Source: Pseudomonadota bacterium (GTDB lineage: Bacteria; Pseudomonadota; Gammaproteobacteria; Steroidobacterales; Steroidobacteraceae). Taken from it: 54,119 bases of DNA. A program made the position numbers and the translations under genes. Shown here piece after piece: positions 25,113 to 30,281 of this stretch. How positions within the stretch are numbered: the first letter of the stretch is position 1; each line of letters starts with the position of its first letter. Location of the stretch: positions 1 through 54,119 of the forward strand of contig JAKARC010000015.1 of assembly GCA_021822385.1 (NCBI GenBank). The letters are read 5' to 3'. The notes beneath the pieces are model-generated. The model did no database searches and had not been told where the DNA came from. It worked only from the letters and a program-made list of their open reading frames with translations.

Positions 25113-25141
25113 GTCGGACTGCGAACATTCCGCAGTCCGAC
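25113..25141 (-). terminator. Perfect 11-bp hairpin directly after the radical SAM stop
   Basis: GTCGGACTGCG (25113-25123) pairs perfectly with CGCAGTCCGAC (25131-25141) around a 7-base loop. One arm shares a base with the stop codon of the radical SAM gene. The position immediately after the gene on its own strand makes it a likely terminator, although no T-tract follows. Confidence 0.65.
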
Positions 25142-26742
25142 TAGCGCGCCGCTGAGCGCTGCGCCGGTGGCGCTGCCCGCGACGAATAATACGACGCATT
25201 GTGCTTGCCGGCGAGCGCCTCACGCGTAAACGTGATCAGATGATGCGCGACCAGCCCCACATGAATCACTTCCTCGATCCGGCCTTGCTGCAGCAGCGGC
25301 CAGGCCGTGCGCCAGAACGTGGTGCGATAATCCGAGGCAATACCAATCTTGACGAGAATATTGGCCATGATGCGCATGCCGCGACCGATGTTTGACCAGG
25401 AGACACGGGCCGAGTTCCGCGGCCGCGGTGCGCGGTTCGGATAGGTGTGGGTCAGGTTCCATGCAAAGCGCTCATACACCGCCTCCGGACTGTACGCGGT
25501 GGCGATGAGCTGCTTCCACGCCGAGATCACCGTTTCGTAGGGACGCATAAAGCGCACGTTCGATTCGAGGTCGGGATCCTCGCAGATGCGATCAGCGGCC
25601 GCGAGCCGTTCATAAAGCTTCGTGCGTGGCAGCGCTTGCAGCAAATTCACGGTGAGCAGTGGGATGTGGCTGCGGCGGATGAACTCGGCGATACGGCTCG
25701 GCGTCTCGGGTGTGTCGGTATCGAGGCCGAGAATGATCCCGGAGACGACCTCAAGCCCGTAATCGTTCAACGTCCTGACTGCATCGAGTATCGGCACTGA
25801 AGTGTTGTGGTTCTTGTGCATTGCCGCCAGCGCGTCGAGCTCCGGTGTCTCAATGCCACAGAACACGGTCGTGAAGCAGGCCGAGCGCATCAACGCCAAA
25901 ATATCTGGATATTTGGCGATGTTCAGCGTGGCTTCGCAGGCAAACTCAACGGGATAGCCGTTGCGCTGCTGCCAATCGAGCAGCGTGTGCAGCAACTGGC
26001 GCGCAGCTTTGCGGTTGGCGATGAAATTGTCGTCGACGAAATAGATGGCCGCGGCCACGCCGTGGGCCAGCTGAACGTCGAGTTCGTGCAGCACCTGTTG
26101 TGGGCTCTTCAGACGCGGCACCCGGCCGTAGAGCGCCGGGATGTCGCAGAACTCGCACCGGTAGGGGCAGCCGCTCGAGGCCTGCACGCTGCCGATGAAG
26201 TAACGCTCGAGCTTGGCCAAGGCGTAGGCTGGCGGAGGGAATTGATCGAGGGGACGGCGTATCTGCGTCTGCAGGCGCACTTGCCGCTGCGGCCGATCGG
26301 GACAGGCGTCAAGCTGTGCGAATAATTGCTCGGTGGCATCGCCGAGCTCGCCGATGTGCAGATAATCGAAGTCAGGATACTGCTGAGGACTGGCTGATAC
26401 TGCCGGCCCGCCGAGCACCGTCGTTTTGCCCGCCCGGTGTGCCCGCCGATTGATGCCGTCGATCGCCGCGCGCTGGACGTGCATCCCGCTCACGAGTACC
26501 GCCTCCGCCCAGGCGAAGTCCGCGGCTGTTGCGGGCGCTATATTCTCGTCCCGGAAGCGCACCTCCCAGTCGCGGGGGACGGCCGCCGCGATGGTGAGAA
26601 TTCCCTGCGGCGGCATGAAGGCACGAATGTGTCCGCACAGGGCGTAGGCATACTCGAAAGTGCCGAAAGACGGGGTGTAGCGTGGAAAAATGCACAGAAT
26701 CCGACGTCGCAATGGTCTGCTCCCGCAGCGCTGCTTCTGCAC
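25141..26742 (-). CDS. B12-binding-domain radical SAM protein (possible HpnP type)
   Basis: A 533-residue protein. The N-terminal B12-binding-like domain starts RRILCIFPRYTPSFGTFEYA and contains MPPQGILTIAAAVP. The radical SAM cluster motif is SSGCPYRCEFCDIPALYGR at about residue 185. IYFVDDNFIANRKAARQLL follows, then a long DUF4070-like C-terminus with SDYRTTFWRTAWPLLQQGRI. The architecture is that of class B methylases, which include the hopanoid C-2 methylase HpnP. Assignment to HpnP itself is tentative. The GTG at 26742 is preferred since GGAG lies 7 bases upstream; TTG 26778 lacks one. It is divergent from the MFS gene. Confidence 0.8.
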   Translation of the reverse strand: MQKQRCGSRPLRRRILCIFPRYTPSFGTFEYAYALCGHIRAFMPPQGILTIAAAVPRDWEVRFRDENIAPATAADFAWAEAVLVSGMHVQRAAIDGINRRAHRAGKTTVLGGPAVSASPQQYPDFDYLHIGELGDATEQLFAQLDACPDRPQRQVRLQTQIRRPLDQFPPPAYALAKLERYFIGSVQASSGCPYRCEFCDIPALYGRVPRLKSPQQVLHELDVQLAHGVAAAIYFVDDNFIANRKAARQLLHTLLDWQQRNGYPVEFACEATLNIAKYPDILALMRSACFTTVFCGIETPELDALAAMHKNHNTSVPILDAVRTLNDYGLEVVSGIILGLDTDTPETPSRIAEFIRRSHIPLLTVNLLQALPRTKLYERLAAADRICEDPDLESNVRFMRPYETVISAWKQLIATAYSPEAVYERFAWNLTHTYPNRAPRPRNSARVSWSNIGRGMRIMANILVKIGIASDYRTTFWRTAWPLLQQGRIEEVIHVGLVAHHLITFTREALAGKHNASYYSSRAAPPAQRSAAR

Positions 26743-27162
26743 ATCGGTACTCCGATGCGTGGCGCTGGCGGGAATCAAGCGGACACACTACGCCGACCCT
26801 CGTGCGGGTCTACCCACCAGTGCTTCGATCGCAGTCTGGCCAAGCGCCCGCGCGCGAATATTGGGATAATTACGTATATTGCCGTGTAATATGCTCCAGG
26901 GCAGTGCGCGGCGGCGGGCCATCGCATGCCGAGGACGGGTCTGCAGTGCGGACGCGGACGGACCGCGGCGGTCCTTGCGCCATGGCGTTCGCGCAGGATT
27001 GATCCGGTGTAAGCTGACTATGCATACAGCGCAACCCGACGGCCGCGCAACCGGAGCCCATGCGCGACACCGTGGGCGCCCGAGCTGCTGCCGGCAGCGG
27101 ATCTGTTCGGCACTGACACACCATGACGCAGCGCCGCGGAGACTTCGACAGGACGCCCGTGA
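26743..27162. other. Divergent intergenic region between the radical SAM and MFS genes
   Basis: About 420 bases. An AT-rich patch at 26858-26892 includes TTGGGA, an 18-base gap and TGTAAT on the plus strand, a possible weak promoter for the MFS gene. It also includes the small inverted repeat ATATT-N7-AATAT (26876-26892). Nothing else is recognised. Confidence 0.45.
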
Positions 27163-28545
27163 ATGTCAACTGCAGACGACCGCCTGCTCGATACGCTATC
27201 GACCGTGCGTTGGAACCGGTTTCATACGGTTGCCGTTGCCCTGTTCGGACTCGGCTGGGCGCTGGATGCATTCGAGGTCACGCTGATCGGCAATGTGCTG
27301 GCGGCATTGCGCCAGCATTTTTTTCTCGGCCGCAATGCGATGTCGATCATCCTGGCGGCCTGGTTCGTCGGCCTGATGATCGGAGCGGCGGGCTTTGGCA
27401 CCTTGTCGGACCGGTTCGGCCGGCGCCGAGTGTTTTTGACAAGCCTGGTGCTTTATGGTGTGGCGACGCTGGCGACTGCGTTCGCGCCGAATATTGCTGT
27501 TCTGCTCGTCTTGCGCGTGCTCGCCGGCATCGGCGTAGGTGCAGAATACTCGGCGATCAACGCGGCGATCACTGAACTCGTGCCGAGCCGCTCGCGGGGT
27601 CGAGCCGCGGCGATCGTGCTGAATTTCTGGCCGATCGGCAGCTTCATGGCGGCGCTGCTCGCGTGGCTGGTACTCTCGACGCTGCCGGCCGATATCGGCT
27701 GGCGGGTGGTGTTCGGCATCGGTGGATTGATTGCGCTGTCGGCCGCCTGGTTCAGGCGTCACCTACCGGAGAGTCCGCGCTGGCTGATCAATGCGGGACG
27801 GACCGAGGATGCGCGTGCCATCATCGGCGCGATCGAGGCTGGAGTGACCTCGCTGCCGCCTGCCACCACGACGCCGATAGCACACCGCATCCGGCGCGAA
27901 ACGGGGCATTTCCGCAGGCTCCTGCGTCACTATCCGGGGCGCCTCCTGCTCGGTGCGGCGCTCGATTTTGCGGAGGCCTCGGGTTACTATGGTTTGTTCG
28001 CATTTCTGCCGCTTGTGGTCGTGCCGGCGCTGCATTTGCCGCCGGCGCGCTTGCCGTTGTTCTATCTCGCCGGCAGCGTGGGTGCCGCGATCGGCGGTCT
28101 CGTTGCCGCGGCGTTGCTTGACCGGCTCGGACGCAGCTGGACCGTGGGCGGATTTTATCTCGCCACCGCGCTTGCTCTCGTCGGCTTCGCCATGATCACC
28201 CGCTTCGGCGCCGGCCCCATCATGCTCGGTTTCGCACTCGTCAATCTGCTGGCGACCGGTAGTTGGATTGCGGCCTATCCGACCTTCTCCGAGCTGTTTC
28301 CGACGGCGCTCAGGGCGAGCGGCATCGGGGCATCCGTTGCCGTCGGCCGGATCGGTGCGGCACTCGCGCCCTTCCTGGTCGGTTATGTGGGTGCACGAAG
28401 CATGCCAGCGGCACTGTTGATGCTCGCTCTGTTCTGGGCGCTCGGTGCGGTCGCGATCCTGATCTGGCGGTTGCGCGGGGGCATTGAGGGCTGTGGTCTT
28501 GCGCTTGAACAGATCAGCGCGACGCGCCCGGTCAGCGAGGTGTGA
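27163..28545 (+). CDS. Major facilitator superfamily transporter
   Basis: A 460-residue protein with 12 predicted membrane helices. The cytoplasmic loop motif is FGTLSDRFGRRRVFLTSLVL between helices 2 and 3. A sugar-porter/AAHS-like motif, HLPESPRWLINAGR, is in the central loop. Helix 1 carries WALDAFEVTLIG, as in organic-acid/H+ symporters. The substrate is unknown. The next gene begins 11 bases after its stop on the same strand, so this transporter probably moves the substrate or product of the phosphoesterase-radical SAM protein. That link is inferred from position. Confidence 0.9.
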   Translation: MSTADDRLLDTLSTVRWNRFHTVAVALFGLGWALDAFEVTLIGNVLAALRQHFFLGRNAMSIILAAWFVGLMIGAAGFGTLSDRFGRRRVFLTSLVLYGVATLATAFAPNIAVLLVLRVLAGIGVGAEYSAINAAITELVPSRSRGRAAAIVLNFWPIGSFMAALLAWLVLSTLPADIGWRVVFGIGGLIALSAAWFRRHLPESPRWLINAGRTEDARAIIGAIEAGVTSLPPATTTPIAHRIRRETGHFRRLLRHYPGRLLLGAALDFAEASGYYGLFAFLPLVVVPALHLPPARLPLFYLAGSVGAAIGGLVAAALLDRLGRSWTVGGFYLATALALVGFAMITRFGAGPIMLGFALVNLLATGSWIAAYPTFSELFPTALRASGIGASVAVGRIGAALAPFLVGYVGARSMPAALLMLALFWALGAVAILIWRLRGGIEGCGLALEQISATRPVSEV

Positions 28546-28556
28546 GGAGTCGCAGG

Positions 28557-30281
28557 ATGCTCGAGCGGATCACTGCCCATTCTGCCGTTCCCTGTATCGT
28601 TGCCGAGGAATCGGTCCTCGTCTTCGGCGGCTGCTATAGCAATCTTGCCGCGACACGTGCTTTATTCGATGTCGCTCGGCACCATCGGATCCCGGCCGAG
28701 CGAATGATCTGCACCGGGGACGTTGTCGCCTATGGCGCCCATCCGCAGGAGTGCGTCGATCTGATCCGCGGGCACGGCATTGCCACAGTGATGGGCAATT
28801 GCGAGGAACAGCTGGCAGCGCGGGCCACCGACTGCGGCTGCGGCTTTGTTCCGGGCTCATCGTGCGACCGTCTCGCCACGGCGTGGTTCGCCTACGCCGA
28901 TCAGCGGATCGATGCGGATGCGCGCCTGTGGATGGCCTCACTCCCCCGACGGATCGACCTCGTGATCGGGGCAGCGCGATTTGCGGTCGTGCATGGCGCA
29001 CCGAGCCGCATCAACCGATTTCTGTTCGCTTCAGACACCGACAGCATCTTCGCCGAGGAAATCGCGCTCACAGGATGCGAGGGTGTCATTGCGGGACACA
29101 CCGGCATTGGCTTCACCCGCAGGATCGGGCAGCAGCTCTGGCACAATGCCGGCGCAATCGGCATGCCGGCCAATGATGGCACGCCGCGCTGTTGGTACTC
29201 GCTGGTGCGATGCGCCGACGAGGGTCCGGTCTTCGAGCTGCACCCGCTCGAATACGATTACCGCTCCGCCGCGCGCGCCATGCGGCGTGCCGGCCTGCCC
29301 GCCGAATACGCCGCGACACTCGAGAGCGGAATTTGGCCGAATCTTGACATCCTGCCCCATCCGGAACGGGCCGCAACCGCCACGGCACTGGAAAAGACCC
29401 CGGGGACCGACGCCGAGGTCGCGCTCGAGACGCTTGAAACGCTCTGGTTCAACACCGGAACATTGTGCAACCTGGCCTGCAGCGGCTGCTACATCGAGAG
29501 CAGTCCGAGCAATGATCGGCTTGCCTGGCTGCCAGTTCAGACGGTGCGCCGCATCCTCGATGAGGCGGCCGAACGTCATCCGCAGCTGCGCGAGATTGGC
29601 TTCACCGGTGGGGAGCCGTTCATGAACCCGGATATCGAAGCATTGATCGATCTTGGTCTTGAACGTGGCTATCGAGTACTGGTGCTGACCAACGCGATGA
29701 GACCACTGCGCCATCATTTCGCGACCCTCGCTGCATGGCGCGACCGTGATCTGCATCTGCGCGTCTCGCTCGATCATTACACAGAGGCGGGCCACGCTGC
29801 GTTGCGGGGTCCGCGTGCATGGGCGGCGGCGCTGTCAGGGATCGACGCGCTCGTTGCTGCCGGATTTATGCCGTCGATCGCCGCACGATTCGATCCCGCG
29901 GCGGAGAATGAAGCTGAGACTCGTGCCGGATTTGCCAGGTTGTTCGCGACGCGGAACTGGCCGATCGATGCCTCCGATCCTCAGCATCTTGTGCTATTTC
30001 CCGAAATGAATGTACCGGCGGAAGTACGCGGCGTCAGTGCCGCCGCCTGGGCGGCGCTGCGCGCGCGCGGGGCCGACGCAATGTGCCGCACTGCGCGCAT
30101 GGTGGTGCAGCGCAAAGGTGACCTCGAGGCCTCTGTCGTTGCCTGCACGTTACTGCCGTACGAGGCGCGATTCGACCTCGGCAGCACTCTGGCCGAGGCG
30201 TCCCGATCCGTCACTCTGGACCATCCGCACTGCGCGCGATTCTGCGTTTTCGGTGCCTCCTCCTGTATGAGCGCGCGATAA
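28557..30281 (+). CDS. Fusion of atypical calcineurin-like phosphoesterase and radical SAM domain
   Basis: A 574-residue, two-domain protein. Residues 20-265 follow a YfcE-like metallophosphoesterase layout: GGCYSN (24-29), TGDVVAYGAHP (53-63), MGNCEEQ (79-85), VVHGAPS and AGHTGIG (179-185). The usual ligands are changed: DxH reads GxY, GNH reads GNC and GHTH reads GHTG. A cysteine cluster lies at 93-103 (CGCG...SSC). Residues 290-574 form a radical SAM domain with TLCNLACSGCYIES (Cys304, 308, 311) and FTGGEPFMNP. Three more cysteines end the protein (HCARFCVFGASSC). The ATG at 28557 has GAGGAG eight bases upstream. The reaction is unknown. Confidence 0.85.
   Translation: MLERITAHSAVPCIVAEESVLVFGGCYSNLAATRALFDVARHHRIPAERMICTGDVVAYGAHPQECVDLIRGHGIATVMGNCEEQLAARATDCGCGFVPGSSCDRLATAWFAYADQRIDADARLWMASLPRRIDLVIGAARFAVVHGAPSRINRFLFASDTDSIFAEEIALTGCEGVIAGHTGIGFTRRIGQQLWHNAGAIGMPANDGTPRCWYSLVRCADEGPVFELHPLEYDYRSAARAMRRAGLPAEYAATLESGIWPNLDILPHPERAATATALEKTPGTDAEVALETLETLWFNTGTLCNLACSGCYIESSPSNDRLAWLPVQTVRRILDEAAERHPQLREIGFTGGEPFMNPDIEALIDLGLERGYRVLVLTNAMRPLRHHFATLAAWRDRDLHLRVSLDHYTEAGHAALRGPRAWAAALSGIDALVAAGFMPSIAARFDPAAENEAETRAGFARLFATRNWPIDASDPQHLVLFPEMNVPAEVRGVSAAAWAALRARGADAMCRTARMVVQRKGDLEASVVACTLLPYEARFDLGSTLAEASRSVTLDHPHCARFCVFGASSCMSAR

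Follow-up and report, generated by a model that had tools for sequence, protein, structure and literature searches.

What would a calcineurin-fold domain whose metal centre appears altered do when fused to a radical S-adenosylmethionine (SAM) enzyme? The question is raised by contig JAKARC010000015.1 of a gammaproteobacterium of the family Steroidobacteraceae (54,119 nucleotides, the whole stretch of DNA that was analysed, hereafter the window), in which a gene for a major facilitator superfamily (MFS) transporter is followed by one for a metallophosphoesterase-like/radical SAM fusion of 574 residues (28557–30281, + strand, stop codon at 30279–30281). We find that the calcineurin-fold half has lost exactly one of two metal sites throughout its family, and we lean towards a reading in which the fusion joins an ArsS-type radical SAM enzyme to a dedicated calcineurin-fold accessory domain in an arsenosugar-type pathway.

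The N-terminal half belongs to the calcineurin-like phosphoesterases (PF12850/PF00149) by family model and by fold, the structure of the fusion being predicted with a mean pLDDT (predicted local distance difference test) of 89.6. Its motifs are FGGCYSN (residues 23–29), CTGD (52–55), GNCEE (80–84), CGC...C (93–103), VHG (145–147) and GHTG (180–183). For the two metal sites we adopt the naming of MJ0936-type enzymes: M1 is ligated by Asp and His of the DxH motif together with the final His of GHTH, M2 by Asn of GNH, His of the HG motif and the initial His of GHTH, and the Asp of GD bridges the two.

The window protein was aligned with 43 domain sequences from the 80 kept loci described below and 23 from other Alphaproteobacteria, giving 67 rows, of which 66 are different. 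The M1 ligands are absent from every readable row (no D at position 25, no H at 27 or 183) and their replacements are conserved: G25 in 66/67, Y27 in 64/67 and G183 in 66/67 rows, with one row unreadable. All four M2 ligands are retained, D55, N81 and H146 in all 67 rows and H181 in 66 (one row unreadable). The catalytic His of GNH, at residue 82, is Cys in 62 rows and Val in five, and the insert cysteines C93, C95 and C103 occur in 66, 67 and 66 rows, respectively. At the corresponding alignment columns, the ordinary relatives L144, L145, L146 and L148 carry DIHxN, GD, GNH, HG and GHTH, and they lack the CGC...C insert. The loss is therefore selective: M1 has been erased, M2 kept and cysteines added. 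Thus, the initial annotation, which had seen GxY for DxH, Cys in GNH, Gly in GHTH and an added CGC...C cluster in this one protein, was right about each residue, and the changes prove to be family-wide; its idea of a rewritten metal site holds for the M1 ligands and the GNH His, but with all four M2 ligands kept only one site is erased. Canonical DxH/GNH/GHTH ligands, the comparison on which it had set store, are found in distant relatives and in no member of the fusion family. The remaining ligands would bind a metal at M2, and the added cysteines may lie near it.

Jointly, positions 82/93/95/103 read CCCC in 61 rows, VCCC in four, VCCA in one and CRCC in one; since C82 is dispensable (Val in 5/67), the CGC...C triad is the steadier set. 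Sequencing error or decay of a single gene as the source of the altered residues is ruled out by the sharing of the pattern among 67 aligned rows, and their conservation likewise excludes chance. No half-changed intermediate was found among the few next-best matches read (L144, L145, L146, L148 and L211, all canonical), a search from which L147 and L149 (matches on the other strand) and the lower-scoring domain-profile matches were set aside; L002 has canonical motifs by eye, but is a distant relative.

The C-terminal half scores 62.5 bits against the PF04055 radical SAM model (cut-off 29.5), and its CxxxCxxC and GGEP columns are invariant. The cluster motif, C304xxxC308xxC311, had been recognized before; the three C-terminal cysteines reported with it are in fact five, all invariant (510, 530, 559, 563 and 570). 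This C-terminal part has structural matches to SPASM/twitch enzymes, its five cysteines being spaced unlike what we take to be the classical seven-Cys SPASM pattern. Of the relatives with a solved structure, the cytosylglucuronate decarboxylase BlsE is the nearest; from it, as from the SPASM/twitch enzymes, the fusion radical SAM differs in sharing only about 20% identity. The best NCBIfam score is to NF049973, the Rv1681 (MoeX) family, which is also the top-scoring model for the relatives L113, L061 and L115; at 96.8 bits it lies far under the cut-off of 380, and open-access literature on Rv1681 yielded no function among the matches listed.

The fusion is not peculiar to the window. A scan of genome contigs gave 344 relatives, of which the best 80 loci were kept (more fusions may exist): 40 are fused, 37 have the radical SAM domain only, and three are others, namely a fusion split over two frames (L060), separate neighbouring genes (L065) and a domain that stands alone in the DNA examined (L071). 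Among 385 Alphaproteobacteria genomes, a profile of the phosphoesterase-like domain (search A2) found it in 24 at no less than 264 bits, the next match scoring 57 bits. It is unfused in 22 of these, the fused cases being L151 and G164 (a BTAi1 gene). The 23 domain loci that were fetched comprise one fusion (L151), eight genes beside the gene for this radical SAM, two located where an ArsS operon ends, and 12 with neither in the DNA examined. Nine unfused domain genes directly adjoin the gene for this radical SAM, eight of them with gaps of 28–70 bp and the ninth being L065; the radical SAM gene comes first in all nine (L065, L156, L157, L159, L160, L162, L166, L167 and L168), whereas the phosphoesterase part comes first in the 40 fusions and L151, which argues against the fusion having arisen simply by loss of the stop codon that separates two neighbouring genes. 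On the tree, fusion state requires seven label changes, two of which are forced by starred branches (L060 being counted as unfused there).

In the window's class the domain occurs in 3/203 genomes (G000, G674 and G689); a 78-bit match in G743 is an ordinary phosphoesterase. The 150 genomes of the window's family gave no further full-length match among those listed. The tree places the window's domain among acidophilic Acetobacterales, so horizontal gain is likely. Two stand-alone domains (L170 8857–10020 and L172 7456–7896), in genomes of 1.2–1.3 Mb, adjoin ORFs (open reading frames) that look photolyase-like by eye, and in Ancylobacter a second, partial radical SAM homologue lies just upstream of the fusion (L055 7034–7969).

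The gene context of the relatives is of arsenosugar type, which is the main new information and was absent from the initial annotation. Near the 40 fused loci, many of which end early at contig ends, we found a flavin adenine dinucleotide (FAD) disulfide reductase at 22, TVP38 at 22, TIGR04283 at 22 and TIGR04282 at 20, all four at 17, MTAP at two and ArsM at none; one or both of the TIGR transferases occur at 23/40. The counts near the 37 radical SAM-only loci are eight for ArsM-like genes, three for MTAP, ten for the FAD reductase, two for TVP38, nine for TIGR04283 and 12 for TIGR04282. MTAP genes lie near 5/80 kept loci, and the recurrent flavoprotein is MerA-like. NCBIfam names both TIGR04282 and TIGR04283 ‘arsenosugar biosynthesis glycosyltransferase’, a name that by itself was not counted as proof of arsenic. 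The pair at L034 passes the TIGR04282 cut-off (151.7 of 134) and just misses that of TIGR04283 (180.8 of 182). L178 holds the whole arsenosugar-type set, its radical SAM gene lying beside TIGR04282-, TIGR04283-, MTAP- and ArsM-like genes (126.3 of 134, 130.8 of 182 and 267.7 of 274.85 for the first three; 201.9 of 263 for the ArsM-like protein with the arsenite methyltransferase model and 131.2 of 400 with the arsenosugar model).

Other neighbours recur as well. A TIGR03169-like flavoprotein (scanned in L029; the domain is elsewhere fused to SelD) is near 8/40 fused loci (L029, L032, L033, L035, L042, L043, L049 and L055) and 0/37 radical SAM-only loci. ORFs that look DUF692-like (11 loci) and DUF2063-like (10 loci) lie near fusions at L024, L026, L027, L028, L037, L038, L046, L051, L055, L067 and L096.

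The radical SAM domain was likewise searched for by profile in the same 385 Alphaproteobacteria genomes (search A3), and 115 of them matched, including genomes of 1.2–1.3 Mb; 114 scored at least 384 bits and one, G290, 206 bits. The radical SAM domain is present in 21/24 domain-bearing genomes, where 7.2 would be expected (hypergeometric p = 2e-9, with related genomes treated as independent). TIGR04283 is found in 146/385 genomes at E <= 1e-28 (125 over the cut-off) and in 109/115 radical SAM genomes. Close ArsM-like genes (at least 256 bits) occur in 10/385 genomes, each of which carries the radical SAM domain, that of G290 being the weaker 206-bit one.

Genuine ArsS, which forms the C–As bond in arsenosugar synthesis, was sought with TIGR04167 in 27 domain-bearing genomes, i.e. 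the 24 Alphaproteobacteria, the window's own, and G674 and G689, which lay outside search A3. It exceeds the cut-off in G188, G321, G674 and G689 (in the last two on another contig than the domain) and in 0/22 of those with the radical SAM studied here. With 22 genomes of the one kind and four of the other, 26/27 carry one of the two radical SAMs; G227 has neither. In G188 and G321 (L163 and L164) the genes are arrayed as TIGR04282, TVP38, FAD reductase, ArsS, MTAP and TIGR04283, with the stand-alone domain at the end, on the other strand and 1.5–1.6 kb from ArsS; the radical SAM of L163 is a genuine ArsS by its score of 434.5 bits (cut-off 300). The strongest hint that the two radical SAM families share a function is that the domain accompanies either of them, in two classes. 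Fusion, adjacency and co-occurrence support the coupling to radical chemistry that had been surmised for the window protein.

ArsS (TIGR04167) is among the closest known systems: it shares with the radical SAM studied here the core homology, at some loci neighbours of the TIGR04282, TIGR04283, MTAP and ArsM kinds and, in four genomes, the same accessory domain. It differs in that the fusion radical SAM falls far under the ArsS cut-off, its C-terminal part is unaligned, and 40/80 kept loci carry the calcineurin-fold fusion. The best reading is an enzyme of ArsS type that lies outside the ArsS model. The arsinothricin cluster arsQML resembles the system proposed here in combining radical SAM C–As chemistry with an efflux permease in one operon; ArsL, unlike the enzyme proposed here, transfers a 3-amino-3-carboxypropyl group, and the passages of the source on the cluster mention no calcineurin-fold protein (PMC8552651). 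The ArsL model was absent among the 25 best NCBIfam matches of the window protein. The calcineurin-like phosphoesterases of the Spr1479/SapH, PH1004 and 3rqz group, likewise among the closest known systems, differ from the fusion family, which lacks M1 and the GNH His and has CGC...C.

Several observations weigh against the arsenosugar-type reading. The window radical SAM reaches only 60.9–62.4 bits with TIGR04167 against the cut-off of 300, and hhalign matches it to ArsS with a probability of 97.8 over 145 core columns, leaving the C-terminal part unaligned. The ‘arsenosugar’ names of TIGR04282 and TIGR04283 are, we presume, themselves based on gene neighbourhood. ArsM-like proteins stay under the NCBIfam cut-offs, and close ArsM genes are missing from 25/26 genomes (the window's own and 24/25 fused-locus genomes searched) and from 24/24 domain-bearing Alphaproteobacteria; in G267, G368, G461 and G487 the ArsM-like matches are all weaker ones, at 69–81 bits and with an in-frame TGA. 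The homologues of TIGR04283, TIGR04282, the FAD reductase and TVP38 in the window's genome lie on contigs C77 and C85, away from the fusion, and in the window no gene of the TIGR04282/TIGR04283, MTAP or ArsM kind is adjacent to the fusion. Furthermore, kinship among the genomes is ignored in the p-values, the profile searches scored only the few best first-look candidates per genome, and 94/115 radical SAM genomes are without the domain, so that the radical SAM itself can do without it. Weaker ArsM-like matches (41–43% identity) occur in five of the 26 fusion genomes searched. As the genuine ArsS genomes G188 and G321 are also without a close ArsM, its absence fails to separate the two radical SAM families.

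ArsM-like matches with one in-frame TGA are seen in G267, G368, G370, G382, G455, G461, G487 and G174, and perhaps represent a selenoprotein ArsM. In the window's genome, both C77 (L110 3085–4140, 9198–12014) and C85 (L111 3290–6472) carry the FAD reductase and TIGR04283, and TVP38 homologues are on both; TIGR04282 is on C77 only. A further radical SAM-like ORF on C77 (L110 15614–16909; CxxxCxxC by eye) has no NCBIfam match at E <= 1e-10 and is followed by ORFs that look like ATP-binding cassette transporters by eye. In L113 and L114, of the same genus, a more distant radical SAM (~36%) is accompanied by homologues of the FAD reductase, TIGR04283 and TIGR04282, so the gene set may also serve a third radical SAM group.

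Starting from the observed sequence features, conservation, fold, gene neighbours and co-occurrence, we propose the following model for the ArsS-type fusion. The radical SAM half would do the job of ArsS, most likely the transfer of a 5′-deoxyadenosyl group to a soft atom, with trivalent arsenic as the probable acceptor; we infer the element from the company that the gene keeps, in its neighbours and its co-occurrences. ArsS was reportedly described by Cheng et al. in 2021. Accounts in the literature attribute C–As bond formation to radical SAM enzymes in the synthesis of oxo-arsenosugars (within the relevant passages of PMC12159101) and of arsinothricin (likewise PMC8552651). MTAP would then cleave the adenosine product, and the TIGR04282 and TIGR04283 proteins would activate it and transfer (glycosylate) it, with redox help from the flavin disulfide reductase and with TVP38 also among the product-processing genes. 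Transport of the product would fall to the MFS protein in the acidophile clade. The calcineurin-fold half would bind a pathway intermediate at its one-metal, thiol-rich site and exchange it, in one direction or the other, with the radical SAM domain. Within this model the cysteines could, tentatively, bind the arsenical, and a structural or redox metal or Fe–S site there is an equally tentative option; remaining hydrolytic activity of this half is a little less probable than either. A bolder proposal is that the calcineurin fold has been rebuilt into an arsenical-binding domain that serves two radical SAM families, genuine ArsS and a second, widespread one of ArsS type, and is fused to the latter in acidophiles and rhizobia. 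An unrecognized arsenosugar-type route would then be common in Alphaproteobacteria (the radical SAM being in 115/385 sampled genomes); we regard this proposal as unlikely.

Four other explanations were weighed; three concern the role of the domain and are compatible with the arsenosugar-type reading, the remaining one contests the pathway. The calcineurin-fold half might still be catalytic, as a phosphatase or nucleotide hydrolase with a single metal. Its substrate would be a phosphorylated intermediate (e.g. the 5-substituted ribose-1-phosphate expected from MTAP) or an adenosine nucleotide. The retention of the M2 ligands in all readable rows, the presence of the diadenosine tetraphosphate hydrolase SapH among the nearest folds, and MTAP genes near 5/80 loci and others speak for such an activity. 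A precedent helps: passages of PMC8102628 describe the phosphoesterase FdrA of Streptomyces sp. MA37, which dephosphorylates 5-fluoro-5-deoxyribose-1-phosphate, and a haloacid dehalogenase-type phosphatase of Synechococcus elongatus that dephosphorylates 5-deoxyribose-1-phosphate. However, Cys or Val stands in for the general-acid His and no M1 ligand remains, and we consider hydrolysis somewhat unlikely. Of similarly doubtful standing is an explanation in which the extra cysteines build a structural zinc site or hold an Fe–S cluster, perhaps one that feeds electrons to the radical SAM cluster, along the lines of the thiolate-based metal or Fe–S site put forward in the initial annotation. The presence of C82, C93, C95 and C103 together in 61/67 rows and the fusion or close pairing with the radical SAM gene would suit it, but C82 is Val in five rows, one of them also without C103, and the domain is dispensable for radical chemistry in the 94 radical SAM genomes that lack it.

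The explanation that contests the pathway keeps the gene set and exchanges the element: the radical SAM enzyme would adenosylate or otherwise modify a non-arsenic substrate, and the transferases and MTAP would process the product. The absence of close ArsM from most domain-bearing genomes, the failure of the radical SAM to reach the ArsS model and a nearest solved relative that is a decarboxylase all fit this proposal. Against it stand the partnership of the domain with genuine ArsS in four genomes from two classes, the confinement of close ArsM-like genes to radical SAM-bearing genomes (10/10) and the complete set at L178, which together leave it unlikely. Finally, a degenerate, ligand-free scaffold kept for protein–protein contact, as in Vps29 (among the weaker Foldseek matches), would accord with the loss of the M1 ligands and the catalytic His but is very unlikely, since every readable row keeps the four M2 ligands and 66–67/67 keep the three cysteines, which argues for a bound ligand.

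The MFS gene ends with TGA at 28543–28545 and the fusion begins 11 bases later, with ATG at 28557, as had been noted from the start (an alternative start is the GTG at 28542). The MFS protein scores 148 bits with PF07690 (MFS_1), above its cut-off, and 201.1 with TIGR00895 (cut-off 418.55), and is 85–86% identical to the MFS proteins that precede the nearest fusions, L022 and L023. The earlier suggestion that it moves the substrate of the fusion fares well at 23 of the 40 fused loci (25 counting cut genes), which have an MFS homologue nearby, but 0/37 radical SAM-only loci do, so the link is not family-wide. The features of the locus are collected in Table 1.

Table 1 Features of the MFS–fusion locus, in window coordinates
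Feature	Position	Strand	Basis
MFS transporter, 460 residues	27163–28545	+	best NCBIfam model TIGR00895 (aromatic acid/H+ symport), below cut-off
Likely Shine-Dalgarno GAGGAG before the fusion ATG	28544–28549	+	inferred from sequence
Metallophosphoesterase-like/radical SAM fusion, 574 residues	28557–30281	+	family models, structure prediction, fold search
Calcineurin-fold domain, residues 20–262	28614–29342	+	
Gly25-Cys26-Tyr27 replacing the M1 DxH ligands	28629–28637	+	alignment; L144, L145, L146 and L148 have DxH
Asp55 kept, bridging/M2 ligand	28719–28721	+	67/67
Asn81 kept (M2), Cys82 replacing the catalytic His of GNH	28797–28802	+	N 67/67; C 62, V 5 of 67
CGC...C insert: Cys93, Cys95, Cys103	28833–28865	+	66, 67, 66 of 67; none in L144, L145, L146 and L148
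His146 kept, M2 ligand	28992–28994	+	67/67
His181 kept (M2), Thr182, Gly183 replacing the last GHTH His (M1)	29097–29105	+	H and G each 66/67, one row unreadable
Radical SAM domain, residues 290–574	29424–30278	+	
CxxxCxxC, Cys304/308/311	29466–29489	+	41/41 rows with letters
C-terminal cysteines 510, 530, 559, 563, 570, candidate auxiliary cluster	30084–30266	+	41, 41, 40, 40, 40 rows, all with letters

A plasmid search returned no record covering 80% of the query. A comparison within the genus for an empty insertion site found some right-flank genes in relatives and no left-flank genes, two of the four stretches being only 5 and 8 kb long. Elsewhere in the window (25141–26778, − strand), a B12-binding radical SAM protein with DUF4070 adjoins a sulfotransferase and a lysylphosphatidylglycerol-synthase-TM protein; its top NCBIfam score is to a P-methyltransferase model, under all cut-offs listed.

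Open-access literature gave, among the matches listed, no description of a phosphoesterase–radical SAM fusion or of a partnership with two radical SAM families (subscription papers being outside the scope). If the arsenosugar-type reading is true, a missing component of organoarsenical biosynthesis, partnering two radical SAM families, would have been named. The capacity would then seem commoner in Alphaproteobacteria than the ArsS model alone reports. The domain is a clean case of a fold that loses exactly one of two metal sites and keeps the other and, should the element be another than arsenic, its partnership as a half-erased phosphoesterase with a radical SAM enzyme would still provide a strong handle on an unassigned pathway.

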